From assembly GCA_021730635.1 (NCBI GenBank), contig JAJNNC010000003.1:1-64000 (forward strand): a stretch of DNA of 64,000 bases. The letters run 5' to 3'. The position numbers were made by a program, and so were the translations under genes. The stretch's first letter is position 1. The number at the start of each line of letters is the position of its first letter. This document shows positions 41,021-58,027 of this stretch, in pieces. The notes beneath the pieces were generated by a model. That model searched no databases, was not told the DNA's origin, and saw nothing but the letters and a program-made list of their open reading frames with translations. The stretch is from Catalimonadaceae bacterium JC749 (GTDB lineage: Bacteria; Bacteroidota; Bacteroidia; Cytophagales; Cyclobacteriaceae).

Positions 41021-41938
41021 CTATATTTTAGCAACGGGCGATCCCAATTCATCCATCCACGCTTCAATGTATGAAAGTAGCGCTTGCAGGTCTGGACTAC
41101 TGCCGTTTTCAACATAGGCGCCTAAGATCGCAAGACCAAGGGCCATACAATGGGTGATTTCAAGGTTGAGATGTAGACCAAGACTATACCCTACATTGAA
41201 ATAATCTGTAAAATTTCTGATTTTTTTGCTTGAAATAGCGCTCCTGGCCCTCCATGTAAAGTTTTGATCTTTGTAGAAAGCCCGGGCCTGATAAATTGAA
41301 AGAATCAATATTCGATCGATTTTTACGGTCTCTAAAAGGTATTGCGCTATTTCATGAACGGTAGGTGACTTACCCGAAAGCTGTCCATACCATAACGTCC
41401 ACAATTTAGCTGCTGCCTGCTCATTGATTACCAAAGAAACCCGTCCATGCAACGAGAAATCACTGATAATGTCCAGTATCTCATCTACCTCATATCCCAT
41501 TTTTTTGGTAGGATCTCCCAAATAAAAAATAAAGTCAAAATCATTTCTCTGAAGCGGCTTGATGACATCAAAACGCAGGCGATCCCACAAATCAGAAGCA
41601 TGTTGAAAATTTGACCAATCTGAAAAAGCAATGATCTGGCAATCATGAAGAAGATTTTTCATGCCTTCACTTCCAAGATTCCTGTCAAGAAGCTGTTGTG
41701 GGTTATGACTAGCATTTTCCAGCGTAAGATTGATAGCTGACAGTGCTTCATGCTGCGGGGAGTGTTTGAAGGTCAGGCTTCTAATGCCTATTTCTGCTAA
41801 AATTGCTGGCTGATAAGATTCATACAGCATGCTGAGGGGTGCTTGATCCTTACCTTTCCCCGCTGCTATGATTGAGCTATCTGTTTTTTGTATAGTTTCA
41901 AAAAGCTCTGAAAGTATGTTTTGTGTAGTAGCCATCAT
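41021..41938 (-). CDS. degenerate PfkB/ribokinase-like protein
   Basis: A 305-residue protein with no signal peptide. The C-terminal part, NFTDYFNVGYSLGLHLNLEI followed by ALGLAILGAYVENGSSPDL, aligns by eye with the ribokinase/PfkB end (GAGDAFNAGF ... AN.AGA), keeping the Asp but losing the Gly-rich anion hole. The middle part, DFDFIFYLGDPTKK and a later RVSLVINEQAAAKLW, fits the fold, while the usual N-terminal sugar-binding GGN block is missing. A binding protein or altered kinase is likely. A direct-repeat operator of the local family lies 225 bases upstream (42163-42200). The family call is tentative. Confidence 0.5.
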   Translation of the reverse strand: MMATTQNILSELFETIQKTDSSIIAAGKGKDQAPLSMLYESYQPAILAEIGIRSLTFKHSPQHEALSAINLTLENASHNPQQLLDRNLGSEGMKNLLHDCQIIAFSDWSNFQHASDLWDRLRFDVIKPLQRNDFDFIFYLGDPTKKMGYEVDEILDIISDFSLHGRVSLVINEQAAAKLWTLWYGQLSGKSPTVHEIAQYLLETVKIDRILILSIYQARAFYKDQNFTWRARSAISSKKIRNFTDYFNVGYSLGLHLNLEITHCMALGLAILGAYVENGSSPDLQALLSYIEAWMDELGSPVAKI

Positions 41939-42338
41939 CTTTTTGGTTTTATTTATTTTTGGAACTGACCTATTGCCTTTGATCGCTTTCGCGCTGTTAG
42001 CAGAAAATCTTTGATTTATCGTGTTGCCACCCTAAAGGCCTTATTTTAATAGCTGACTATTTGCATGCCATTCCTTTCGTTTTATTGAAAACTTTAGAAA
42101 GCCACGTTTAACACGATATGTACCCCTTTCAACCATGTAAAAAGAATGTAGCTGAACACCTCTGCACCCCATTTTCTGAGGTAAACCCAACATTTCTGGG
42201 TTGCCACCATTTATCCGCTTTCTCTTGCCCAAGTAATTTTTCAGGATTATGATAAAAGGGTAGCGGCAGACTGCTAGCGATACACTCAGCGCCCAGTGCC
42301 ATAATCAGATCACGACTGACGGATCAAACTTTAATAGG
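41939..42338. other. intergenic region with operator C
   Basis: The 400-base region upstream of the PfkB-like gene holds the tandem repeat site at 42163-42200 and no convincing gene. A 63-codon minus frame at 42041-42232 overlaps the site and is not accepted. Confidence 0.45.
42163..42200 (-). promoter_or_regulatory. tandem direct-repeat operator, site C
   Basis: Read on the minus strand, the first 19-mer is CCCAGAAATGTTGGGTTTA (42200-42182), which also contains the inverted pair ACCCA/TGGGT. The second, weaker unit is CCTCAGAAAATGGGGTGCA (42181-42163). The first unit matches sites A (45453) and B (47825) closely and has the same orientation toward its downstream gene as they do. Confidence 0.5.
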
Positions 42339-44369
42339 CTAAGTAGTGATTATTTTGCGAATACCCAGTTTTTCTATGCGGTACTCGAGTGTAGAGGGTT
42401 TCAGGTTCAATAACTCAGCAGCACCTCCACTCCCCCTGATGCGTCCGTTGGTTTGCCTGAGAATGGATAGGATGTATTCTCTTTCTGTCTCTTGTTGCAT
42501 CTGTTTTACTTCTTTCAAATTTTTGGGCTGCGCATCAGCGCCCTGTTTCTGGTCTGGCATGTTGTGATCAGCCTGTGCAGAGGGTGATTCCATTGAAAAC
42601 AGGTTATGGCTCAAAGAACGACCCAATGCCAAAGGCTCCTGACTGTTGTGGAGAATAACGGCCTGTTCCATCACGTTTTCCAATTCACGAATATTTCCGG
42701 GCCAGGAATAATTGACCAGTTGTTGAAGAGAACTATGGCTGATACCCCGGAAAGGTCTGCCCATTTTTCTCGCCGATCGCTGCGCAAAAAAGGCAGCTAG
42801 TTGTGGTATATCACTCTTACGGTCGCGCAAAGGAGGCAAGGTAATGGGGAAAGTTGACAGCCGGAAATACAAATCCATCCGGAAGCGTCCTTCATGCACT
42901 TCCTTTTCCAGATTACGGTTGGTAGCCGTAATGACGCGCACATCCGTTTTAATGAGTTGATTGCTTCCCACCCGTTCAATTTCTTTTTCCTGTAAGACCC
43001 TCAATAGCTTTACCTGAAGCTCTAAGGGCATCTCCCCAATTTCATCTAAAAAAATAGTACCTCCCTTTGCCAGTTCAAACTTACCCACTCGTTTATCAGT
43101 GGCCCCGGTAAAGGCGCCTTTCTCATGACCGAAAAGTTCGGATTCAATAAGGGAAGCGGGCAAAGCTGCGCAGTTAATTTTCACCAGGATTTTGTCCTTA
43201 CGGGAAGATAAGTTATGGATAGCCCGGGCAAAAAGTTCTTTACCTGTACCACTCTCACCCAAAATCAACACATTGGCATCGGTAGGGGCTACCTGCGAAA
43301 CCTGATCAAAAACCTTCAACAGGGTTTGGCTCGTGCCAATGATTTCTTCAAAGTTGGCGGTTGTTTTTACTTCCTCCTGCAGATAGGTCTTTTCCAGCTG
43401 AAGTTGCTCGCTGAGCTTTGCAATCTGCTCGTGAGCGAACACCCGATCCAGGGTGAGTATCATGGGTTGTTCCAATCGTTCTAATAAATTCAGATGGCCA
43501 GACAGGTATGCCTCAGGCTTACGACTATACAATGATAGAAGAATCTGTTCTCCTTGCACCAGTTGCATGGGGAAAACCAGCACTGATGCTAACCGGTATG
43601 TATTGGCAAGCAGTTGTACGAATTGATTTTTTCTGGCTAAAGATTCAAAATCACTTTGGTTAAATCGTTTTGGATTTTTAGTTACCTTTTCAGATAGCAT
43701 TTCCTGGAGCCGCTCAACCGGGACCTTTGTCAACTGTGACAGATCATGCAACGCAATGGATTGATACTCCTCAAATCCAGTCCGATAAAAGACATAGCTT
43801 AGTGTTGAGGAATCCTTTTGATAATGCAATGTTAAAAAATCAAAGGGTATATGAAGCTGGAGCAGCATAGCCACTTTTAACAGCTTCTCATCCCAATCTT
43901 CTTTACCAGATAAAGTATTCGTAAGGGCAATCTGCAGGGCTTTTTCTTCCCCTAGCTTCCTTTCAACACTATGCTCATATTTGTAACGCGCAATTTCAAG
44001 GGTAGTGAGGAGGTCTTGATCCCGAAAAGGTTTCACAATGTAACCACTGGGTTTGGTAGCTTTTACTTCTTCCAATACGCCTTGGTTATCGTTGGCAGAA
44101 ATATAAATGAAAGGTATATTGACTTCTTCTAATTGCTTGGCAAGGTCGATACCGGTTTTTTCTCCTTTCAGATATATGTCCAGTAACACTATATCTGGTT
44201 TCTGTTTCTCCATTAAAACTTCGGCCTTGTCTACTGCATTGGCTATCCCTATGACTGAATATCCTGCCTCGGATAATGTCAGTTTCAAATCATTCGCAAC
44301 AACAAACTCATCCTCTACTATTAAAATCTGGTAGGGATTGACAGGGGGAGTAGCTTTATTTAATGACAT
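42339..44369 (-). CDS. sigma-54 activator with receiver and GAF-like domains (FhlA-like end)
   Basis: A 676-residue response regulator. Residues 10-130 form a receiver domain (phospho-acceptor Asp64 in IVLLDIYLKG, acidic pair E19/D20). Residues about 150-320 resemble a GAF domain. Residues about 345-575 are the AAA+ sigma-54 domain with Walker A GESGTGKELFARAIH near 370, the sigma-54 contact loop GAFTGA near 420 and Walker B GGTIFLDEIGE. The C-terminal Fis-type helix-turn-helix (GRIRGSGGAAELLNLKPSTL) is like FhlA. No partner kinase is adjacent; the TPR kinase at 52639 is the only one in view. It should drive sigma-54 promoters; I saw no perfect GG-N10-GC site nearby. Confidence 0.9.
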   Translation of the reverse strand: MSLNKATPPVNPYQILIVEDEFVVANDLKLTLSEAGYSVIGIANAVDKAEVLMEKQKPDIVLLDIYLKGEKTGIDLAKQLEEVNIPFIYISANDNQGVLEEVKATKPSGYIVKPFRDQDLLTTLEIARYKYEHSVERKLGEEKALQIALTNTLSGKEDWDEKLLKVAMLLQLHIPFDFLTLHYQKDSSTLSYVFYRTGFEEYQSIALHDLSQLTKVPVERLQEMLSEKVTKNPKRFNQSDFESLARKNQFVQLLANTYRLASVLVFPMQLVQGEQILLSLYSRKPEAYLSGHLNLLERLEQPMILTLDRVFAHEQIAKLSEQLQLEKTYLQEEVKTTANFEEIIGTSQTLLKVFDQVSQVAPTDANVLILGESGTGKELFARAIHNLSSRKDKILVKINCAALPASLIESELFGHEKGAFTGATDKRVGKFELAKGGTIFLDEIGEMPLELQVKLLRVLQEKEIERVGSNQLIKTDVRVITATNRNLEKEVHEGRFRMDLYFRLSTFPITLPPLRDRKSDIPQLAAFFAQRSARKMGRPFRGISHSSLQQLVNYSWPGNIRELENVMEQAVILHNSQEPLALGRSLSHNLFSMESPSAQADHNMPDQKQGADAQPKNLKEVKQMQQETEREYILSILRQTNGRIRGSGGAAELLNLKPSTLEYRIEKLGIRKIITT

Positions 44370-44747
44370 GGCTTCAAATGTTTAATGATGCATTCCTGAA
44401 ATTATTTTGAGCTAGCCAATAGAATTATCATAAAGACAGATAATTAAATTGGCTTACTGGCTATGATGTAATCATCTCCCTCATGTATTAGCCACTGAAA
44501 CATCTTCTGAAGGTAGTGAAAATCCTTCAAAAAACGAACCTGGCCTTTGCCATTACATGAAACAATATTCGGTCATTTAAACCATATAGAAAAGTATCTA
44601 TCTTTTCATGCTTTCTTCCATTCATGCATGATGATGCAATTGAATATTCAACATCTCTGATTTGTATTATTATATGATTGTCCATTCGGATAATTTTTCT
44701 TGGCCCCTGATTATTCTGTGGCACTGAGCATAATTCAGACACACTCC

Positions 44748-44785
44748 CCCAAAAAATTTGGATATGCCTGAATTATTTGGATTTA
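44748..44785 (+). promoter_or_regulatory. tandem direct-repeat operator, site D
   Basis: CCCAAAAAATTTGGATATG (44748-44766) matches the second unit of site B at 17 of 19 positions when R is allowed where the units differ. It is followed directly by CCTGAATTATTTGGATTTA (44767-44785), a weaker second unit. It lies 175 bases before the SnoaL-like start and could also serve the divergent sigma-54 activator. Confidence 0.45.
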
Positions 44786-44913
44786 TTCAAAAAAAATTTC
44801 ACGATCCATAGCAACTACCCTGAATACATGAGCTTAATGATTCATATTTACGCTATAAAATATACCCAATCAAACCTTTTTATTCCTCAACTCCTTTTAA
44901 GGAGGCTGGCATA

Positions 44914-44936
44914 TACCTTGAGTTATCCTCAAGGTA
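44914..44936 (+). promoter_or_regulatory. perfect inverted repeat just before the SnoaL-like gene
   Basis: TACCTTGAG (44914-44922) and CTCAAGGTA (44928-44936) flank a 5-base spacer and end 23 bases before the start. It is either a repressor operator or an RNA hairpin that could block translation. Confidence 0.45.
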
Positions 44937-44959
44937 GTATTCACACTTCTACCACGAGT

Positions 44960-45400
44960 ATGATGAATAACAAACAAATTATTGAAGGGCTTTATCAAAA
45001 TATGTTTGAGCGTAATATCAGTAAAGTTCTGCCTGTATTAGATGAACATATAAAGATTTGGGTGCCAAAATCCTTGCCTTTCGGAGGGGAGTTCCTTGGC
45101 AGAGAGGGTTTTATCGCTATGGTATCTAAGCTCAATCAGATCTGGGAAGACCTCAAGGTCCTCTATCTGCATTATTATCTGCCGGAAACAACCGGTACTG
45201 ATCATGTATTGGTTCATGGCAAATTGGAGGGGAAAGTCTTTCAGGCTGAAGAGTCCTACACCTTTCATTTTATCAGCCAATGGCTTTTAAAAGAGAATAG
45301 AATCATAGAACATAGCGTTTTTTTTGAAGATACATCTGAATTACTTCAATACATAAATAACCACACAAACAGTTCTAATCATTTGCTTAATGGATTGTAA
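44960..45400 (+). CDS. SnoaL-like / NTF2-fold protein
   Basis: A protein of about 146 residues with the SnoaL-like NTF2 fold: MMNNKQIIEGLYQNMFERNI, LDEHIKIWVPKSLPFGGEFL and a later LVHGKLEGKVFQAEESYTFH, ending in IIEHSVFFEDTSELLQYIN. Members bind or isomerise small hydrophobic compounds, and many have no known reaction. The open frame extends to 44777, but the homologous part starts at the double Met at 44960, which I take as the start. It is preceded by site D and an inverted repeat and followed, after 236 bases, by the NmrA gene on the same strand. Confidence 0.75.
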   Translation: MMNNKQIIEGLYQNMFERNISKVLPVLDEHIKIWVPKSLPFGGEFLGREGFIAMVSKLNQIWEDLKVLYLHYYLPETTGTDHVLVHGKLEGKVFQAEESYTFHFISQWLLKENRIIEHSVFFEDTSELLQYINNHTNSSNHLLNGL

Positions 45401-45452
45401 GCGTCAATGGAAAAAGACTGTTCCAAGAATGCCCGGAAATTACTATGAATTA

Positions 45453-45490
45453 CCCAGGTATTTTGGGTTTGTATAAATAGTCTGGATACC
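45453..45490 (+). promoter_or_regulatory. tandem direct-repeat operator, site A
   Basis: The first unit is CCCAGGTATTTTGGGTTTG (45453-45471), containing ACCCA/TGGGT as an inverted pair. The second, weaker unit is TATAAATAGTCTGGATACC (45472-45490). A TTTG at 45510-45513 lies 20 bases past the repeats, as expected for a -7 box behind an activator site. The homologous block with site B reaches to about 45595, 147 bases past the repeats to the NmrA start. Confidence 0.55.
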
Positions 45491-45636
45491 CATTCCTGTA
45501 AGCTACCAGTTTGTTAATGGGCAAAAAAGGCCTTCCATCGATTTAAATTAACATTATCAGGATTTTTTTTCTCCCTCCCTTCCGTGGCATACCAATAGCC
45601 TGAAAAATCCAAAGTAGAACCATAAAAAAACAAATC

Positions 45637-46398
45637 ATGAAAATTGTAGTAATTGGCGGTAGCGGGCTTATTGGATCTAAGCTCGTCAGCAAGCTTCGTC
45701 AGCACGGCCAAGAGGTCATCGCAGCATCCCCTGACTCCGGAGTGAACACCATTACCGGGGAAGGACTGGCTGAAGTGCTCACAGACACCCAGGTAGTCGT
45801 AGATGTAGCTAATTCTCCTTCCTTTGAAGACAGTGCTGTCATGGAATTCTTTGAAACATCGGGTCGCCATTTATTGGCTGCGGAAGCTGTTGCCGGGGTC
45901 AAACATCATGTGGCCTTATCAGTAGTAGGTACAGACCGGCTCCAGGAAAGTGGTTACTTTCGTGCCAAACAGGCCCAGGAAAACCTGATCAAAAAATCGG
46001 GTATCTCTTATTCCATCGTTCATTCTACGCAGTTTTTTGAGTTTTTGCGTAGCATTGCTGCCGCTGGCGCAGTAGGTGAAGAAATTCATATATCACCGGC
46101 TCCCTTTCAACCCATTGCCTCTGAGGATGTGGCAGCAGCCATGGCAGAGGTTACCATGGGAAAACCCATCAATGGTATCATAGAGATTGCAGGCCCAGAG
46201 CGAATCAGTCTGGCTGAACTCGTACAGCGCTATCTGAACAAGATGGGAGATACACGAAAGGTAGTGGCAGATAGGCATGCCCGTTACTATGGTGCCGAGT
46301 TGAACGAACACACCCTGGTTCCTGAAAACGGTGCCAGGATCGGCTCGATTGATTTTGAGACCTGGTTTAGTAACCAGAAAATTGTAATTAACCATTAA
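45637..46398 (+). CDS. NmrA-like NAD(P)-binding protein
   Basis: A 253-residue atypical short-chain dehydrogenase. The dinucleotide motif is IVVIGGSGLIGSKLVSKL at residues 3-20, and the NmrA-like block VKHHVALSVVGTDRLQESGY with FRAKQAQENLIKKSG is in the middle. The YxxxK pair is replaced by FRAKQ, so a redox sensor or non-classical reductase is more likely than a typical dehydrogenase. It is preceded by site A and followed 11 bases later by an alpha/beta-hydrolase gene, with which it is surely co-transcribed. A fragment of a paralog lies at 57020-57166. Confidence 0.85.
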   Translation: MKIVVIGGSGLIGSKLVSKLRQHGQEVIAASPDSGVNTITGEGLAEVLTDTQVVVDVANSPSFEDSAVMEFFETSGRHLLAAEAVAGVKHHVALSVVGTDRLQESGYFRAKQAQENLIKKSGISYSIVHSTQFFEFLRSIAAAGAVGEEIHISPAPFQPIASEDVAAAMAEVTMGKPINGIIEIAGPERISLAELVQRYLNKMGDTRKVVADRHARYYGAELNEHTLVPENGARIGSIDFETWFSNQKIVINH

Positions 46399-46409
46399 AT
46401 CACAAATCA

Positions 46410-47126
46410 ATGACAAACACAAATGTAAAAAACGTGATGCTGGTACATGGCGCCTTTGCAGACGGTTCGGGATTCAAAGCACTTTATAAAGTACTGACTA
46501 AAAAGGGCTTTAATGTCACTGTCGTTCAAAATCCTTTGACCTCACTGGAAGATGATGTAAAGGCAACTCATGTTGCTTTGGATAAACAGGACGGGCCGGC
46601 AATTTTGGCAGGTCATTCATGGGGTGGGGCTGTGATCACTGAAGCAGGGAATCACCCAAATGTGACGGCACTGATATATATTGCTGCTTTTCAACCTGAC
46701 AATGGCGAATCAGCGCTTCAATGGTTGCAAACCGTACCTCCTGCTCCTGAAAATGGGGTTCTTCCTCCCGATGAAAAAGGGATTGTATATTATGACAAGG
46801 ACAAATATCACGCAGGTTTCTGTGCAGATATTGAGGCTGAGGAAGCAGCATTTATGTATGCCTCACAAGGCGCCTTTTATGCCAAAGGTTTTGCCACTCC
46901 GATCACCAAGGCTGCCTGGAGAAATAAGCCAGCATACGGTCTGGTAGCTACTGAGGATAAAAGCATAGATCCGGAAATACAACGCAATATGTATAACCGT
47001 TCAAATACCCAGGTCAAAGAAGTCAAGGGCAGTCATGTCATCTATATGTCACAACCGGAAATTGTGGCTGATGTCATTAACCAGGCAGCTCAAAATGTGC
47101 CCAAGATGCTTCAAACCCAGGAATAG
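46410..47126 (+). CDS. alpha/beta hydrolase, cytosolic
   Basis: A 238-residue alpha/beta hydrolase: oxyanion loop VMLVHGAFADGSG, nucleophile Ser in GHSWGGAVITEAG, acidic member probably in VATEDKSIDPE and catalytic His in SHVIYMSQP near the end. This is the EstC-like group that includes small ester and lactone hydrolases. It has no signal peptide, unlike the very similar protein at 50401-51213. It forms an operon with the NmrA-like gene. The substrate is unknown. Confidence 0.88.
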   Translation: MTNTNVKNVMLVHGAFADGSGFKALYKVLTKKGFNVTVVQNPLTSLEDDVKATHVALDKQDGPAILAGHSWGGAVITEAGNHPNVTALIYIAAFQPDNGESALQWLQTVPPAPENGVLPPDEKGIVYYDKDKYHAGFCADIEAEEAAFMYASQGAFYAKGFATPITKAAWRNKPAYGLVATEDKSIDPEIQRNMYNRSNTQVKEVKGSHVIYMSQPEIVADVINQAAQNVPKMLQTQE

Positions 47127-48088
47127 TCTGATCTAAAGGTGCATTATGTATAATGTAAGCTTCTCGCCCGCCGTAACAAAGATGACGGGTGTCAGTTCGT
47201 TGAGGCTGTTGTAAGGGGTTGTGCACTTTCCACCCGTTCGTGCACGGGACCACCCACGTCGGCGCGATGTCCCCGCGGAAAACCGATCAACAACACAGCG
47301 AAACAGGGGGCGGGAACTTTCCTTCTATCCTGCTGAAATATTGCGTGCATGATACAAGCCATATGAGCTGGTTTATATCATAAAGTCAGGCGCTATTTTT
47401 TGCCGAATACCAGGTAGCAGCCTATCATGCCTGAACCTGCATTTAACCCATTCTCTTTCGCTTTAGAATACCCATAAAAGCTATCTTCGTGCTGCTCCTT
47501 TACAGCCCTTACCTACCATGCCAGAGTAGCTTACCTCCGACCGGATCTCCCTATCAAATATGTGTTCGCATACCATGAATTCCTGTCTGATTTGTTAGCG
47601 TTTTGGCTTCAACTTCGGCTACCAAAAAATAAAGTAGTGCTTCTCTTACTCCTTTCTGATGTATTTATAATGACTGATGATTACCTATGCATCCTGGCAT
47701 CTTTGCCAATCTACTACAACCCTTATAAGAAATGCATAAGCAGTAGTGTTCTGAATGGATGATAACATAAGAACGCAAGGGTCAATCTATCAAAAAATGA
47801 GGTCTGATAAAATGACCTGAATCACCCAGGAATTTCGGGTTTGCCCAAGAGTTTCGGATATGTAGAAGTCAAAACTGGTATGGTTTGTTTGAGCAAAACG
47901 GCCTTACATTGATTAAAATGGACATTAGACAAGTTTTTAACGACCCCTTCCTGCCTGGCATGTAATTCGTCTTCGTTGAATCACACCACACAATCATTCT
48001 TATTCAACTCAATAGGTGTCAATCTATTTTGTGGGTGAAGTATCCGAAACAGTGGTGTCTATTTAACTTTTTCATCAAAACTACATAA
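47127..48088. other. long intergenic region with GC-rich patch and operator B
   Basis: There is no convincing gene in 960 bases. The part from about 47165 to 47330 is markedly GC-rich compared with its surroundings and includes the short hairpin CCCGT/ACGGG. The 3' part, from 47819 on, is the promoter block shared with site A. Confidence 0.5.
47825..47862 (+). promoter_or_regulatory. tandem direct-repeat operator, site B
   Basis: This is the clearest site: CCCAGGAATTTCGGGTTTG (47825-47843) is followed without a gap by CCCAAGAGTTTCGGATATG (47844-47862), identical at 15 of 19 positions. TTTG at 47884-47887 is a likely -7 box. Direct repeats about two helical turns apart are the usual AraC-family binding pattern. 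It lies 227 bases before the hydrolase start at 48089. Confidence 0.6.
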
Positions 48089-49096
48089 ATGTCAAAAGTC
48101 ATGAATGACACAATCACTTTAGAAATCAACTCCTTACCGGTAGACAGTGATCCTGCTCTTTCCAGAAAAACAAAAGCGTTTTTAAACAAAATCAATGCTT
48201 CCGATGGCCCACCCCTGGAAACATTACCGCCAGTAGAAGCCAGACTAGGGTTGGTAAACTTACAAAACGCTTTTGAAGTAGATTTGTCGGGTATCGATGT
48301 TTCTGAAAAAACTATCAACAGCAACGGCTTCCGGATAAGGCTCCACATTGTTCGGCCGGAAGGTGTCAAAGAAAAACTACCAGTTTTCATTTTCATCCAT
48401 GGTGGGGGTTGGGTGTTAGGAGATTTCCCTACCCATCAAAGAATGGTAAGAGACCTGGTCGTCCTGTCAGGCTACTGTGCCGTTTTTGTAAACTATACAC
48501 CTTCTCCGGACGCGCACTATCCGCAGGCAATACAGGAGATTTATGCTGCCACCCAATGGGTAGCAGAAAACGGAGATGAGATCAACGTAGACGGTAAAAA
48601 TCTTGCTGTGGTAGGCAATAGTGTCGGTGGCAATATGACAGCCGTGACCACCCTCATGGCGAAGGAAAAGGGAGGCCCTGACATCAAACTACAAATCATG
48701 ATGTGGCCCATTGTAGAGGCTGACTTCAATACAGCTTCTTACCAGCAATATGGTGAAAAGCGGTTCCTGACTACCCCCTTAATGAAATGGATGTATGACC
48801 AATATACCTCAGATTTAGAACAGCGGAAAGAAATTTATGCCTCTCCATTACAGGCATCCATCGATCAGCTGAAAGGCTTACCCCCAGCCTTAATTCAGGT
48901 AGCCGAGGCGGATATTTTACGGGATGAAGGAGAAGCCTATGGCCGTAAGTTAGACGAAGCCGGGGTAAAAGTAACGACCGTGCGTTATAACGGTATGATC
49001 CATGATTTCGGATTGTTAAACGGTCTGGCAGAATTACCGCAAACCCAATCTCTCTTTTTACATGCGGCAGCCGAACTGAAAAAGTATCTGGGGTGA
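48089..49096 (+). CDS. alpha/beta hydrolase of the HSL (hormone-sensitive lipase) family
   Basis: A 335-residue esterase/lipase. The family motif HGGGWVLGDF near residue 101 forms the oxyanion hole, the nucleophile Ser lies in VVGNSVGGNM, the catalytic Asp is in VAEADILRDEGEAY and the His is in GMIHDFGLLNG. There is no signal peptide. An N-terminal cap of about 85 residues precedes the core. It should hydrolyse short- or medium-chain esters. It is preceded by operator B and appears to be a single-gene unit, followed by a MITE-like element. Confidence 0.9.
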   Translation: MSKVMNDTITLEINSLPVDSDPALSRKTKAFLNKINASDGPPLETLPPVEARLGLVNLQNAFEVDLSGIDVSEKTINSNGFRIRLHIVRPEGVKEKLPVFIFIHGGGWVLGDFPTHQRMVRDLVVLSGYCAVFVNYTPSPDAHYPQAIQEIYAATQWVAENGDEINVDGKNLAVVGNSVGGNMTAVTTLMAKEKGGPDIKLQIMMWPIVEADFNTASYQQYGEKRFLTTPLMKWMYDQYTSDLEQRKEIYASPLQASIDQLKGLPPALIQVAEADILRDEGEAYGRKLDEAGVKVTTVRYNGMIHDFGLLNGLAELPQTQSLFLHAAAELKKYLG

Positions 49097-49144: not shown

Positions 49145-49273
49145 AGAGCGTGTTTTAAAATTTTATTCTGATATCATGACAAAAAAGCGGCATATGTTCT
49201 TTTTAGCACCCCATGCTTCTCCGCATTTTTAATTTGTCGGTTTACAGAAACTTATAAAATTTAAACACGCTCT
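49145..49273. mobile_element. MITE-like element with 20-22 bp terminal inverted repeats
   Basis: AGAGCGTGTTTTAAAATTTTAT (in 49145-49166) mirrors the reverse complement of the right end (49254-49273) except for two extra bases. The 129-base interior has no coding frame. The GAGCGTGTTT ends resemble those of IS elements of the IS4/IS5 type. It ends 20 bases before the next start codon and may supply or displace that gene's promoter. I see no clean target duplication. Confidence 0.6.
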
Positions 49274-49293: not shown

Positions 49294-50115
49294 ATGGAAA
49301 AATCAAAAACTATCGTACTGATTCACGGAAATTTTGTGAATGATGCCACTTGGGCTGAATGGAAGCCATATTACGAACAAAAAGGGTACAAAGTTTATAC
49401 ACCCACCAATCCGGGACACCAAGGAAACCCATCGGAATTAAGAAAGCATGTGCATCCTGATTTAACTAAAACAGGATTCATAGATGTGGTGAACAACATT
49501 GCCAACTTAATTGACACCTTGCCTGAAAAACCGTTGGTTATTGGACATTCTATGGGGGGAATGGCAACGTTGAAACTCGTTGAATTGGGTAAAGCCGTAG
49601 CAGGCGTTAGTATAGACGGAGCACCGCCGAAAAATGTGTTCCCTCCCTTACAGACACTTAAAACTGTACTACCAGCCTTTGGCTTTTTCTCCTTCAAAAG
49701 ATATTTTATGGGAAGCCGTCAATGGTATGACTATGCATTTTTCAATACTATAGCTGATACAGAAAAAGAAAAAGCATTTGAAAAATATGCCGTACCCGAA
49801 AGCTATAAGGTGAGTCGTCAGTTGGTTTTGAACACCTATTCAAACATAGATTTCAAAAAACCTCACGTACCAATTTTATTCATAGGCGGCGGTAGCGATC
49901 ATATATTCCCTCCTACTCTTACCAAAGATATCGCAGGGCGGTATAAGGACACAAATAGCAGGATTGACATCAAGATATTTGAAAACAAAAGCCATTTTAT
50001 TTGCGGAGAAAAGGGTTGGGAAAGTGTAGCTGATTATATTCTGGATTGGTACGAAAACTATCACGCTGCACACAACAAGGTATTGCCAAAAGCGGGGCGG
50101 CCGCAATACTATTAG
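49294..50115 (+). CDS. alpha/beta hydrolase
   Basis: A 273-residue alpha/beta hydrolase: TIVLIHGNFVNDATWAEW at residues 6-23, then the nucleophile in IGHSMGGMATLKLVELG, the likely acid in IGGGSDHIFPP and the His in KSHFICGEKG. It is a different subgroup from the EstC-like pair in this cluster (extra GAPPKNVFPPLQTL loop and cap). No signal peptide is seen. It is separated from its neighbours by a MITE-like element upstream and a related noncoding block downstream. Confidence 0.88.
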   Translation: MEKSKTIVLIHGNFVNDATWAEWKPYYEQKGYKVYTPTNPGHQGNPSELRKHVHPDLTKTGFIDVVNNIANLIDTLPEKPLVIGHSMGGMATLKLVELGKAVAGVSIDGAPPKNVFPPLQTLKTVLPAFGFFSFKRYFMGSRQWYDYAFFNTIADTEKEKAFEKYAVPESYKVSRQLVLNTYSNIDFKKPHVPILFIGGGSDHIFPPTLTKDIAGRYKDTNSRIDIKIFENKSHFICGEKGWESVADYILDWYENYHAAHNKVLPKAGRPQYY

Positions 50116-52638: not shown

Positions 52639-55278
52639 TCAGGAATTTTTCCGGGAAATGTCTGTGCTATGCGTCATGGTTGTTGCTTGTTTATAAACAA
52701 AGGTGACGATAATGGCTGTGCCTTCACCATTTTCTATCGTAAAACTACCGCCGATGTCGGTACTCAGACCTTCCATCAGGCTCATTCCTAAAGATTTACG
52801 TTTCTGATTTTCGAAATTGGGAACCAGCCCTATTCCATTGTCCCGAATGGTCATCACATATTGTTCATCTCCCATGTGTTTCAAAGAAACTTTAATCTCG
52901 CCTTCTCTATTTTCCGGAAAAGCAAACTTGATCCCATTGGTAATCGCTTCATTGAGGATTAAGCCCAGCGGGACGGCATGGGATACATTCAGCTTCACCG
53001 GATCATTTTGGCATTCAAAGCGAATGCGCCTTCCTGTGTTGAATAAATCACGTAAATATTTTACCAGTTCATTGATGTAAGCGGGCATATCAATCGCAGC
53101 AACGCTTTCCGATTGATAGAGTTTTTTATGGATCAAGGAGATAGCCTGTACCCGGTGCTGACTATCCCGGATAGCCTGTCTGGCAGCCTCATTATTCAGG
53201 TATACCGCCTGTGAATTCAACAGACTCATAACGATCTGTAAATTATTTTTTACGCGGTGATGAATTTCTTTCAGGAGCCACTCTTTTTCTGTCAGTAATT
53301 GGTCTTTCTCCACGATTAAGGTATCCTTCTGGATAAGGAGGAGGTCTTTTTCAGCAAGCAACTGGGAAAGGTGGCCATTCTTATAGTTTATTTCTTCTTT
53401 TTGGGTTTGCAGTTCCTGCTGTTGCGCTTTTAAATGCCGGTTGCTGTGCTGCTTCAGGCGATAACGGTTGTATACAACGCCTAAAAGAGCGATCAACAAG
53501 GCTGTGCCTCCAATGAGGGTATTCCGTTGTGCTTTTTGCGTTTCACTTAGCTGGGTAAGCAGTTCAATGTCTTTTTCTTTGAGCTTAAGTTTCTGTTCTT
53601 TTTTTTCTGTCTCATACTGAATACTCAACTGTTCAATCTGATGACTTTTCTTTTCGTTGAACACTGAGTCGCTAAGGGCTTTGTAGCGCTGATACTGTTG
53701 AATGGCTGCCTGGTAATCGCCCTGTGCCGAATCCACTTTGAAACGCATCAGATGCACCTCAATGCGATGACTGGGTATGATATTCTCGGCAGAGGCCTTC
53801 AGCAATCGATTTAAATAAGGGTCAGCCTTGGCATATTGACCTTTGGAAACGAAAAACTGGCTGATAGTTTTCCAGACAAAATGTTGAAACTGCAAAGGGG
53901 TCTGTTTGCTCCAGGCAACCCCTTCCAGGTAATACTGCTCAGCCAGACTGTATTGTGCCAAAGCATCATAACAGGCACCGAAGCTTTGGGCGACATAGAC
54001 TTTATCTTCATAAGTGAGTTGCCAAATGTTAGGCGTAGCCTCCTGTAATAAATGCAGGGCTTCCTTCGGTTTTCCCTGCTGTAGTAACGCTACGACCATA
54101 CGCCTGATAAGCCCTATCCGGATAAAGGCCTCCCCCTTCTTTTGACTCATCGCCAGCGACTGTTGGTAATATAACATACTTTTGTCGTACTGCCCCAACT
54201 CCCAATACGCATTACCCAGCCGATAATAGGTGTAGTCTAAATCCCCGGGCCTTCCGCTACTCTCCGCCTCTTTGACCACTTCCAGTACATACAATAATTT
54301 CTGATTCAGATCCCCATTCAGTTGGCCCAAGTCTGAAAGCAGATAATAGGCATTGGATAGGTATCCATAGTCGCTGGGCATATGATATACACTTTCATCA
54401 GCCAGTGCCTGATAAGCATCGCTCACAGCGCGAAAGCCAATTTTTTTTTGAATCTCCACTGCCTGAAGCGCATAATTTTGTGCCTGTGTGATAACGCCAC
54501 GGTCTTCCAGCAAATACTTATATCCCATCTCCAACAGAATCAGTGCCTCATGCGCCCTGTCTCCTACCTGTTGGGCAAGGGTTAACGCCCTGGATAGCGC
54601 CATGATATTTTCACGGCAGTCATCACAAAACCTGACTGTTGCCATCCTCAGCCATGCTTTCATTTCTCCATGTTTGTCACCTGCCTTCTGGCGGGCTTCT
54701 ATGACCTGTAAAAAATACGCTTTCCCTTTATCCCAATCCCCTTTCAGCAGGTAGGTGGCTCCCAAAAGGCATTGGCTCTCTTCTTTCCATACGGAGTGTC
54801 CAATACGATCACTAAGTGTTTCTGCACGGTGGAAAAACACCAACGCGCTATCCCAATGGGCATTGACCGTATAGGATGGCCGAAGATGGGATTTTCCCAG
54901 GGCTATCAACAGTTTGATATGAGTGGTATCGCTCAGGCTCGAAAGCATACGGAGCAAAACATCAGCCTTATCCTGTCTGATATAAATTTTACCCCTTAGC
55001 GAAACAGCTTCTTCCTGTGCTTTGGCATCATTGAGTTGGTGGCTCAACACTTCAGCCTGTTTTACAAGCACCAAAGCACTATCCATTTCCCTGGGAGAAG
55101 CAAAGGTTTTATACAGATAAAAAGCGCTCAGGTCAAGGAGTGCACGTACCCGGTTGGTATTGGGCTTACTACGCTGGATGACCTTGTACAGACTGTCAGC
55201 TTCATCAATGGTAATTATTTGAGCATTGACTTGGTTCATTGAAAAAAGTACCGTGCAAATAACAATCAGTAATTTCAT
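52639..55278 (-). CDS. TPR sensor histidine kinase (HisKA_2 type)
   Basis: An 879-residue sensor kinase with a signal peptide and about 530 periplasmic residues of TPR-like repeats (DLDYTYYRLGNAYWELGQYD, QSFGACYDALAQYSLAEQYY). One membrane helix lies at about residues 584-607. A tight coiled coil follows with five consecutive heptads of the LLAEKDL / LLIQKDT / LIVEKDQ type. The phospho-acceptor His is in EIHHRVKNNLQIVMSLLN near residue 671, and the ATPase domain has NEAITNGIKFAFPE and DNGIGLVPN. The partner is unknown; the sigma-54 response regulator at 42339 is the only complete response regulator in view. Confidence 0.9.
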   Translation of the reverse strand: MKLLIVICTVLFSMNQVNAQIITIDEADSLYKVIQRSKPNTNRVRALLDLSAFYLYKTFASPREMDSALVLVKQAEVLSHQLNDAKAQEEAVSLRGKIYIRQDKADVLLRMLSSLSDTTHIKLLIALGKSHLRPSYTVNAHWDSALVFFHRAETLSDRIGHSVWKEESQCLLGATYLLKGDWDKGKAYFLQVIEARQKAGDKHGEMKAWLRMATVRFCDDCRENIMALSRALTLAQQVGDRAHEALILLEMGYKYLLEDRGVITQAQNYALQAVEIQKKIGFRAVSDAYQALADESVYHMPSDYGYLSNAYYLLSDLGQLNGDLNQKLLYVLEVVKEAESSGRPGDLDYTYYRLGNAYWELGQYDKSMLYYQQSLAMSQKKGEAFIRIGLIRRMVVALLQQGKPKEALHLLQEATPNIWQLTYEDKVYVAQSFGACYDALAQYSLAEQYYLEGVAWSKQTPLQFQHFVWKTISQFFVSKGQYAKADPYLNRLLKASAENIIPSHRIEVHLMRFKVDSAQGDYQAAIQQYQRYKALSDSVFNEKKSHQIEQLSIQYETEKKEQKLKLKEKDIELLTQLSETQKAQRNTLIGGTALLIALLGVVYNRYRLKQHSNRHLKAQQQELQTQKEEINYKNGHLSQLLAEKDLLLIQKDTLIVEKDQLLTEKEWLLKEIHHRVKNNLQIVMSLLNSQAVYLNNEAARQAIRDSQHRVQAISLIHKKLYQSESVAAIDMPAYINELVKYLRDLFNTGRRIRFECQNDPVKLNVSHAVPLGLILNEAITNGIKFAFPENREGEIKVSLKHMGDEQYVMTIRDNGIGLVPNFENQKRKSLGMSLMEGLSTDIGGSFTIENGEGTAIIVTFVYKQATTMTHSTDISRKNS

Positions 55279-56894: not shown

Positions 56895-57019
56895 ACTTCA
56901 TCGTTGGTTTTGAGTATTTATGATCTATGCATCATACCAGATTTTACCCAGCTTTGCTGAAGAGCCCGATAGCAGCGTTTTGTCATTTGATTTTGCTCCA
57001 AAATATGTTGCATTCTCAT

Positions 57020-57166
57020 CGGAAATTGCGGAGAGTGTACAATGCTATAAGGAATTTTGGATTCCTGTATGAGATTTTCCTGAGCCTGTTTTACCCTGAA
57101 ATAACCGCTTTGCTGGAGTCGGTCTGTACCGACAGCGGATAAGGCTACATGATGCTTGACCCCTGC
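57020..57166 (-). pseudogene. internal fragment of an NmrA-like gene
   Basis: Minus-strand residues AGVKHHVALSAVGTDRLQQS and GYFRVKQAQENLIQESKIPY match the centre of the NmrA-like protein at 45637-46398 with only a few differences. Neither the NAD-binding N-terminus nor the C-terminus is present, and unrelated residues flank the fragment. It is a remnant of a second paralog copy. Confidence 0.75.
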
Positions 57167-57403
57167 CTTTTTCTCTTTCCCCTTTTTCACGATATACTTC
57201 CGAATAGCCCAAGTAAGATTTTCCTACACCTTTTGGGGACAGGATCTGCTCGCTAAGTTGCGAAAACAACAACGCGGGTGTTGGTTATACTTTCCGGAGG
57301 AAATTTGGACCAGGCAACACATTTAAAAGCATGGCAGACTAATTTTCTGAAGGAAAGGCCTAATCTTTAAACAATTACCCCGAAGCCTATTTCTTGTCAA
57401 TTC

Positions 57404-57694: not shown

Positions 57695-58027
57695 GATATT
57701 AAAATTAAAGTTGATGTAACCTGCATGTATCAAACCATTCCTGTGAAAAAGTCCACCTGATGATCCTTGCTGGTGGACTCAGTGGCCAATGCTTGTGCTG
57801 AGCACTTAAAGTAAGACTATTAAGGTGCCAAGATCAATACGCATAAACACCATTCGACATTTACCTGAAAATGAGTAAGTTATAAAGTAAATCTGCCTGA
57901 CTGTAGTGGAGGAGCAGTGTTAAACTCCAAAAAAACTGGGGATCAGAGACGAGATCTCCAGAATTTTTGTGGAACCCATACATTGCGTGATATTTTCATT
58001 GTTTAAGATAAACAGAGGGTTCTTATT
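57695..58027. other. intergenic region with a 7-bp hairpin
   Basis: GTCCACC (57751-57757) and GGTGGAC (57772-57778) form a perfect 7-bp stem with a 14-base loop upstream of the small gene and past the end of the MDR operon. Nothing else is evident. Confidence 0.35.

Follow-up and report, generated by a model that had tools for sequence, protein, structure and literature searches.

A predicted sigma-54 regulon in the 42–48 kb cluster

In a 64,000-nucleotide stretch of the genome of Catalimonadaceae bacterium JC749 (contig JAJNNC010000003.1, positions 1 to 64,000; hereafter the window), four 38-bp sites (S1–S4) lie in a gene cluster at 42–48 kb. On the basis of comparative sequence analysis, we consider it highly probable that these are enhancer sites of a two-component, sigma-54-dependent regulon and that they are bound by a local activator. 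A first-pass annotation had described the sites as tandem 19-bp direct repeats, suggested that they mark one regulon, with AraC genes as candidate regulators, and stated that the regulator was not next to them; the latter proved incorrect, as the gene of a sigma-54 activator (42339–44369, minus strand) sits between S1 and S2. All four sites were recovered at the positions and on the strands reported there, each upstream of the gene named for it and pointing towards that gene. They are listed here with a looser fifth candidate.

S1, 42163–42200 (-): dyad pair and candidate upstream activating sequence (UAS), CCCAGAAATGTTGGG / CCTCAGAAAATGGGG, the second weak
S2, 44748–44785 (+): dyad pair, CCCAAAAAATTTGGA / CCTGAATTATTTGGA, between the activator and SnoaL genes
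S3, 45453–45490 (+): strong dyad CCCAGGTATTTTGGG with a poor second unit, TATAAATAGTCTGGATACC
S4, 47825–47862 (+): dyad pair, CCCAGGAATTTCGGG / CCCAAGAGTTTCGGA
S5, 57926–57971 (-): candidate looser fifth pair, CACAAAAATTCTGGA / CCCAGTTTTTTTGGA, 31 bp apart

Each 19-mer of S1–S4 is composed of an imperfect 15-bp dyad, YCCR-N7-YGGR, and a 4-bp spacer, and the units of a site stand in tandem, in one orientation, about two helical turns apart. The four pairs annotated as direct repeats are real as pairs, but are better read as paired 15-bp dyads, of which six of eight are convincing; the second unit of S1 scores no higher than background places and that of S3 is poor. A tandem direct-repeat appearance can thus conceal paired dyads.

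Downstream of all four sites, and in matching orientation, we identified an element TGGCAT-N7-G of the sigma-54 -24/-12 type. The gap between site and element is 92 bp for S1, 121 bp for S2, 94 bp for S3 and 93 bp for S4.

42056–42070 (-): S1 element, TGGCATGCAAATAGT
44907–44921 (+): S2 element, TGGCATATACCTTGA, with counterparts in the SnoaL promoters of six relatives
45585–45599 (+): S3 element, TGGCATACCAATAGC, 0 mismatches
47956–47970 (+): S4 element, TGGCATGTAATTCGT
57816–57830 (-): S5 element, TGGCACCTTAATAGT, 95 bp from the nearer dyad

TGGCAY-N7-G motifs number 24 over both strands of the window. The probability that four random positions all have one was estimated at ~9e-9 for distances of 80–130 bp and ~3e-6 for 30–250 bp, with motif and distance ranges picked when the sites had already been seen and without correction for intergenic composition. 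The -24/-12 pattern was not used alone: with one mismatch it gave 389 matches in the genome against 240 when read backwards, and with two mismatches 172 in the window against 191 expected.

Scanning of the whole genome (8,001,652 bp), which the first-pass annotation had suggested, set the pairs apart from their single units. A 39-column sequence model built from S1–S4 themselves returned these four sites at E 3.5e-6 to 2.9e-5, and the next match reached only E 1.76 among the 150 of 2727 first-look candidates that were scored. Single units, in contrast, were at chance level, with 28 genome matches at up to two mismatches against 34 in the reversed control; a shorter single-unit pattern with two mismatches was likewise near chance in the window (129 against 118 expected), and neither was used alone. 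All three zero-mismatch matches, and five of the eight with at most one mismatch, fall in this cluster, and a partner dyad with a TGGCAT element accompanies 1 of 23 matches outside it. Because single units are at chance and the second units of S1 and S3 are weak, the information resides in the pairs and the downstream elements. That outside match, a possible sixth site (L247), was rejected as it lies antisense within a long open frame resembling a sulfatase gene.

The local activator and its proposed kinase

The activator is a bacterial enhancer-binding protein (bEBP), and the window also encodes a sensor kinase that we propose as its partner.

42339–44369 (-): bEBP activator with Response_reg, a middle region, Sigma54_activat and a Fis-type helix-turn-helix (HTH), between S1 and S2; proposed binder of S1–S5
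52639–55278 (-): TPR-HisKA_2-HATPase sensor kinase (HisKA_2, E 1.9e-26), proposed activator partner

The activator matches Sigma54_activat (PF00158) at E 2.6e-74 and Response_reg at 7.9e-17, and it contains the Walker A and B motifs and the GAFTGA loop (GESGTGKE at residue 371, GAFTGA at 418 and FLDEIGEM at 440). The NCBIfam models of NifA, FhlA and NtrC align on it up to residues 667–672. NtrC-type bEBPs, including NtrC, AtoC and ZraR, carry receiver, AAA+ and Fis-type HTH domains in this order and activate sigma-54 polymerase from enhancers. The activator has the same domain order, but differs from them by approximately 200 extra residues that separate the receiver from the AAA+ domain. It reaches the cut-off of none of the 25 NCBIfam models listed, and its best alignment, to FhlA (8.3e-120, residues 146–672), scores 401.5 against a cut-off of 830. 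Since it carries a receiver domain, the protein is not FhlA; as this alignment begins at residue 146, its middle region may be GAF-like.

The kinase shares 42% identity over 569 residues with the kinase found directly before the activator in one relative (G071), and 33% over 793 residues with the corresponding Flavitalea kinase. The genome contains a single rpoN match (9.7e-56, an open 481-aa frame) and 15 Sigma54_activat matches above 200 bits.

We infer that the two-component pair would sense a signal and the kinase would phosphorylate the response-regulator activator, which would then bind two neighbouring 15-bp dyads as Fis-type HTH dimers. This binding would assemble the AAA+ ring, with the approximately 95–125 bp to the -24/-12 element looped, and ATP and the GAFTGA loop would open sigma-54 RNA polymerase at the promoters of the sugar-kinase-like, SnoaL, NmrA-hydrolase and HSL esterase genes. 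The promoter at 57.8 kb (S5) would probably be activated likewise.

Recurrence of the arrangement in relatives

An activator ortholog at E ≤ 1e-140 is present in 28 of 390 genomes of the order, JC749 included, and the best is 68% identical. Our main scans covered 20 ortholog regions, 19 from 18 genomes together with that of Flavitalea sp. BT771. In 19 of the 20, a TPR-HisKA_2 kinase is encoded no more than 2 kb from the activator (the activator of the G143 region is near a contig end). Six of them have, as does the window, a SnoaL gene in divergent orientation to that of the activator.

The dyads of these relatives are often perfect and are spaced 18–21 or 29–32 bp apart, near two or three helical turns. 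Clear examples are found in Flavitalea (L052; TCCGATAATTTCGGA / TCCGAAATTTTCGGA), G071 (TCCGATATTTTCGGA / TCCGAAAATATCGGA) and G404 (TCCAGATATAATGGA / TCCAATTTTTCTGGA). A matrix scan for a dyad pair followed by a -24/-12 element across the window and the 20 regions identified 23 arrangements, four in the window and 19 in the regions of 13 relatives; the reversed sequences gave none. Training dyads came from seven of the 19 hits in relatives. The other 12 contributed none, but five of them (G272, G307, two in G088 and one in G071) have one dyad letter-identical to a dyad used in training, and a single pair is common to the three G143 hits. With six regions left out of the main scan included, the full arrangement lies near an activator ortholog in 13 of 26 regions. 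Eleven further loci (L054, L055 and L146–L154), mostly around other bEBPs, yielded one weak arrangement, in L151.

The position of the dyads is also preserved. In the SnoaL promoters a strong dyad ends 127–129 bp above the -24 element in five of six relatives, and the corresponding distances for the two dyads of the window are 144 and 125 bp. The best dyad in the 700 bp upstream of the activator was scored in 14 loci, namely the window and 13 relatives without a kinase upstream of the activator. It reaches at least 16.3 bits in 12 of them, some of these dyads being training dyads; the values for G143 and G404 are 12.3 and 8.3. Dyads of this strength are found in 1–5% of 700-bp windows in the 14 loci. 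The common dyad, spacing and promoter type, and recurrence near the orthologs of one activator, support the earlier suggestion that the activator sites mark one regulon.

Two side observations concern the orthologs themselves. Two or three TPR-HisKA_2 kinases are found near one activator in the G336, G351b, G272, G366 and G119 regions, possibly reflecting multi-input control. The distribution of the ortholog is patchy: in its own family, within the 390-genome sample, it is present at E ≤ 1e-140 in its own genome only, plus a stop-bearing match in G025, and horizontal spread is possible.

A recognition-helix residue correlated with dyad type

Activators with a tyrosine in the recognition helix (TLEYR) are found mostly with TCCA...TGGA dyads, and those with a serine (TLESR) mostly with TCCG...CGGA. 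For this comparison we used a pattern fixing only TCC...GGA and counted paired dyads, chance pairs included, in 12 Tyr and 7 Ser regions. Positions 4/12 of the dyad carry A/T in 16/32 cases in Tyr regions versus 1/27 in Ser regions, and G/C in 1/32 versus 13/27; the two groups follow clades, and this is a correlation only. G/C dyads were found in five Ser regions (G071, G088, G143, Flavitalea and G119), and four others (G251, G383, L051 and L145) gave no G/C pair. The window activator is of the Tyr type, and its dyads have CCA on the left and either TGG or CGG on the right; given this mixture, the Tyr/Ser code is not strict.

We tentatively suggest that the system may represent a mobile Bacteroidota sigma-54 two-component regulon, in which one recognition-helix residue would shift site specificity and into which an AraC second tier could be inserted, although we do not hold this broader proposal to be probable. 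A possible Tyr/Ser code, which would distinguish A.T from G.C at dyad position 4, is the most novel part of the findings, and the correlation offers a simple test of site choice by the Fis-type HTH domains of these activators.

Evidence against the proposed regulon and alternative readings

Several observations weigh against the assignment of S1–S4 to this activator. Its HTH_8 match (21.6 bits, E 1.8e-4) is just below the Pfam cut-off of 22.0, the proposed kinase is encoded 8 kb away, and 14 strong bEBP matches lie elsewhere in the genome. The -12 halves of the S1, S2 and S4 elements are imperfect, and by matrix the elements of S1–S4 are mostly not the top matches of the window. The matrix scan missed S1, which is below the per-dyad threshold because its second unit is weak.

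The sample of relatives raises similar points. Flavitalea and G071 were retained in the set with matches already seen, and six ortholog regions without sites (L051, L053, L056, L143, L144 and L145; 45–57% identity) were left out of the main scan; when rescanned later, these six gave no arrangement. Seven of the 20 regions also lacked the arrangement in the matrix scan: G238, G108 and G337, where the activator nevertheless has a strong dyad upstream; G119, where a TCCG pair is followed 106 bp below by CGGCACACAAATGGCT, the latter identified by eye; and G103, G251 and G383, in which nothing convincing was found. Among the six SnoaL promoters, that of G404 is without a strong dyad. Strict patterns, consisting of two perfect TCCA- or TCCG-type dyads followed by TGGCA, matched 7 of 390 genomes (TCCA 5, TCCG 2), five of which have an activator ortholog with the match within 8 kb of it. 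Read-backwards controls matched 1 (TCCA) and 2 (TCCG) genomes, which places the TCCG pattern at control level, and the p value of 2.5e-5 is non-independent because the five positive genomes had themselves provided the dyads that define the patterns. These scans show mainly the rarity of such pairs elsewhere; JC749 itself gave no match to the strict patterns.

Given that 14 of the 15 strong Sigma54_activat matches lie elsewhere in the genome, S1–S4 could be sigma-54 enhancer sites bound by another bEBP, a reading to which we assign a very small probability. The arrangement recurs near the orthologs of this activator in other genomes but was not seen around three own-genome paralogs (L147–L149). 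Furthermore, the TLEYR helix, paired with TCCA-type dyads in relatives, was found in this activator only among the 10 of 15 C-termini extracted, one of which had no HTH in view. Smaller still, in our estimate, is the likelihood that the sites are tandem direct repeats bound at a primary-sigma promoter by an AraC protein from 8291, 16119 or 60205, the candidate genes of the first-pass annotation. AraC-family regulons have non-palindromic direct-repeat units at fixed spacing, and S1–S4 resemble such sites in having two adjacent units that point the same way at a distance of nearly two helical turns; AraC genes are indeed present in the window. The sites differ, however, in that their units are dyads, clearest in relatives, where spacing ranges from 18 to 32 bp, and in that the elements downstream belong to the -24/-12 type and follow at a near-constant distance, with a Fis-type HTH sigma-54 activator encoded in the cluster. 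Nor is there a conserved AraC partner, since the three proteins of the window match weakly in 8, 5 and 1 of the 20 relatives' regions (20–37% identity among the matches listed). The least probable reading is that copies of one ancestral promoter arose as genes were duplicated locally and have been retained through inheritance, with no shared regulation. In its favour, several targets are hydrolases or NAD(P)-binding proteins, and an NmrA-like remnant below the candidate S5 promoter (56918–57190, minus strand) matches the S3 NmrA gene at 40 of 50 compared residues. Against this, the first genes below S1–S4 belong to different families, and the stretches from dyad to promoter are unlike one another by eye, while dyads, spacing and -24 box are alike.

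The genes that follow the arrangement in relatives point to another role for AraC proteins within the proposed sigma-54 regulon. By eye, AraC-type regulators are the first gene below it in G404, G366, G351, G261, G307 and Flavitalea, with AraC identity Pfam-tested in Flavitalea only (L052 11134–12015). In G119, the TCCG pair separates the activator from an AraC-like gene, after which come homologs of HSL (67% identical to that of the window), ABH3 and ABH2. Because AraC-like genes stand directly below the sites in several relatives, we interpret them as downstream tiers and not as binders, and this suggests a bEBP-to-AraC relay in these genomes. The search is thereby redirected away from the three AraC genes of the window. 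Other first genes, again by eye, encode SDR-like proteins, a small membrane protein, an alpha/beta hydrolase and SnoaL, and for some hits the first gene is the activator itself or encodes a long protein of another kind.

Relation to described sigma-54 regulons

Sigma-54 regulons of Fis-type bEBPs have been reconstructed with their UAS in Clostridiales. In the passages of that study drawn on here, most UAS lie 100–250 bp upstream of TTGGCATNNNNNTTGCT, often several per promoter, and most targets are near the bEBP gene (PMC6615313). The system in JC749 shares the Fis-type HTH bEBP, the UAS motifs, several UAS per promoter and targets near the bEBP gene, and so belongs to a known kind. It differs in phylum, kinase input and targets, and in its UAS, YCCR-N7-YGGR as compared with the TGT...ACA (10–12-bp spacer) of 15 of the Clostridiales groups, those used for this comparison (PMC6615313). 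A broad sigma-54 survey (PMC12316311) covers Bacteroidota, and the passages of it drawn on here make no mention of this regulon; our literature searches found no paper on it. Descriptions of sigma-54 activators and of their sites seem to be few in this phylum. The cluster offers promoters, a UAS motif and a list of targets along with a named activator and its probable kinase, all of which can be tested together.

Target genes and neighbouring features

The predicted targets of S1–S4 are as follows.

41021–41938 (-): S1 target, sugar-kinase-like gene (Pfam Khk)
44960–45400 (+): S2 target, SnoaL-like gene
45637–47126 (+): S3 target operon, NAD(P)-binding NmrA-like gene and alpha/beta hydrolase
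48089–49096 (+): S4 target, HSL-type esterase (Abhydrolase_3)

As a guess, this set of esterases, alpha/beta hydrolases, NAD(P)-binding proteins, SnoaL and a sugar-kinase-like protein might serve in the handling of small reactive or esterified compounds. The NmrA-like remnant below S5 looks like a decayed duplicate.

For the window genes at 49294, 50401 and 51270, no upstream dyad-pair and -24/-12 arrangement was seen. A different pattern, CYTATAAAWTTT, has three occurrences in the window when both strands are searched, at 49251, 50268 and 51251 (+), each immediately before one of these three genes of the cluster, the first two encoding hydrolases and the third CMD; it may represent a further type of promoter that they share. 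A G+C-rich stretch at approximately 47170–47330, located between S4 and the hydrolase gene, appears by eye unlike its flanks and is possibly an insertion remnant.

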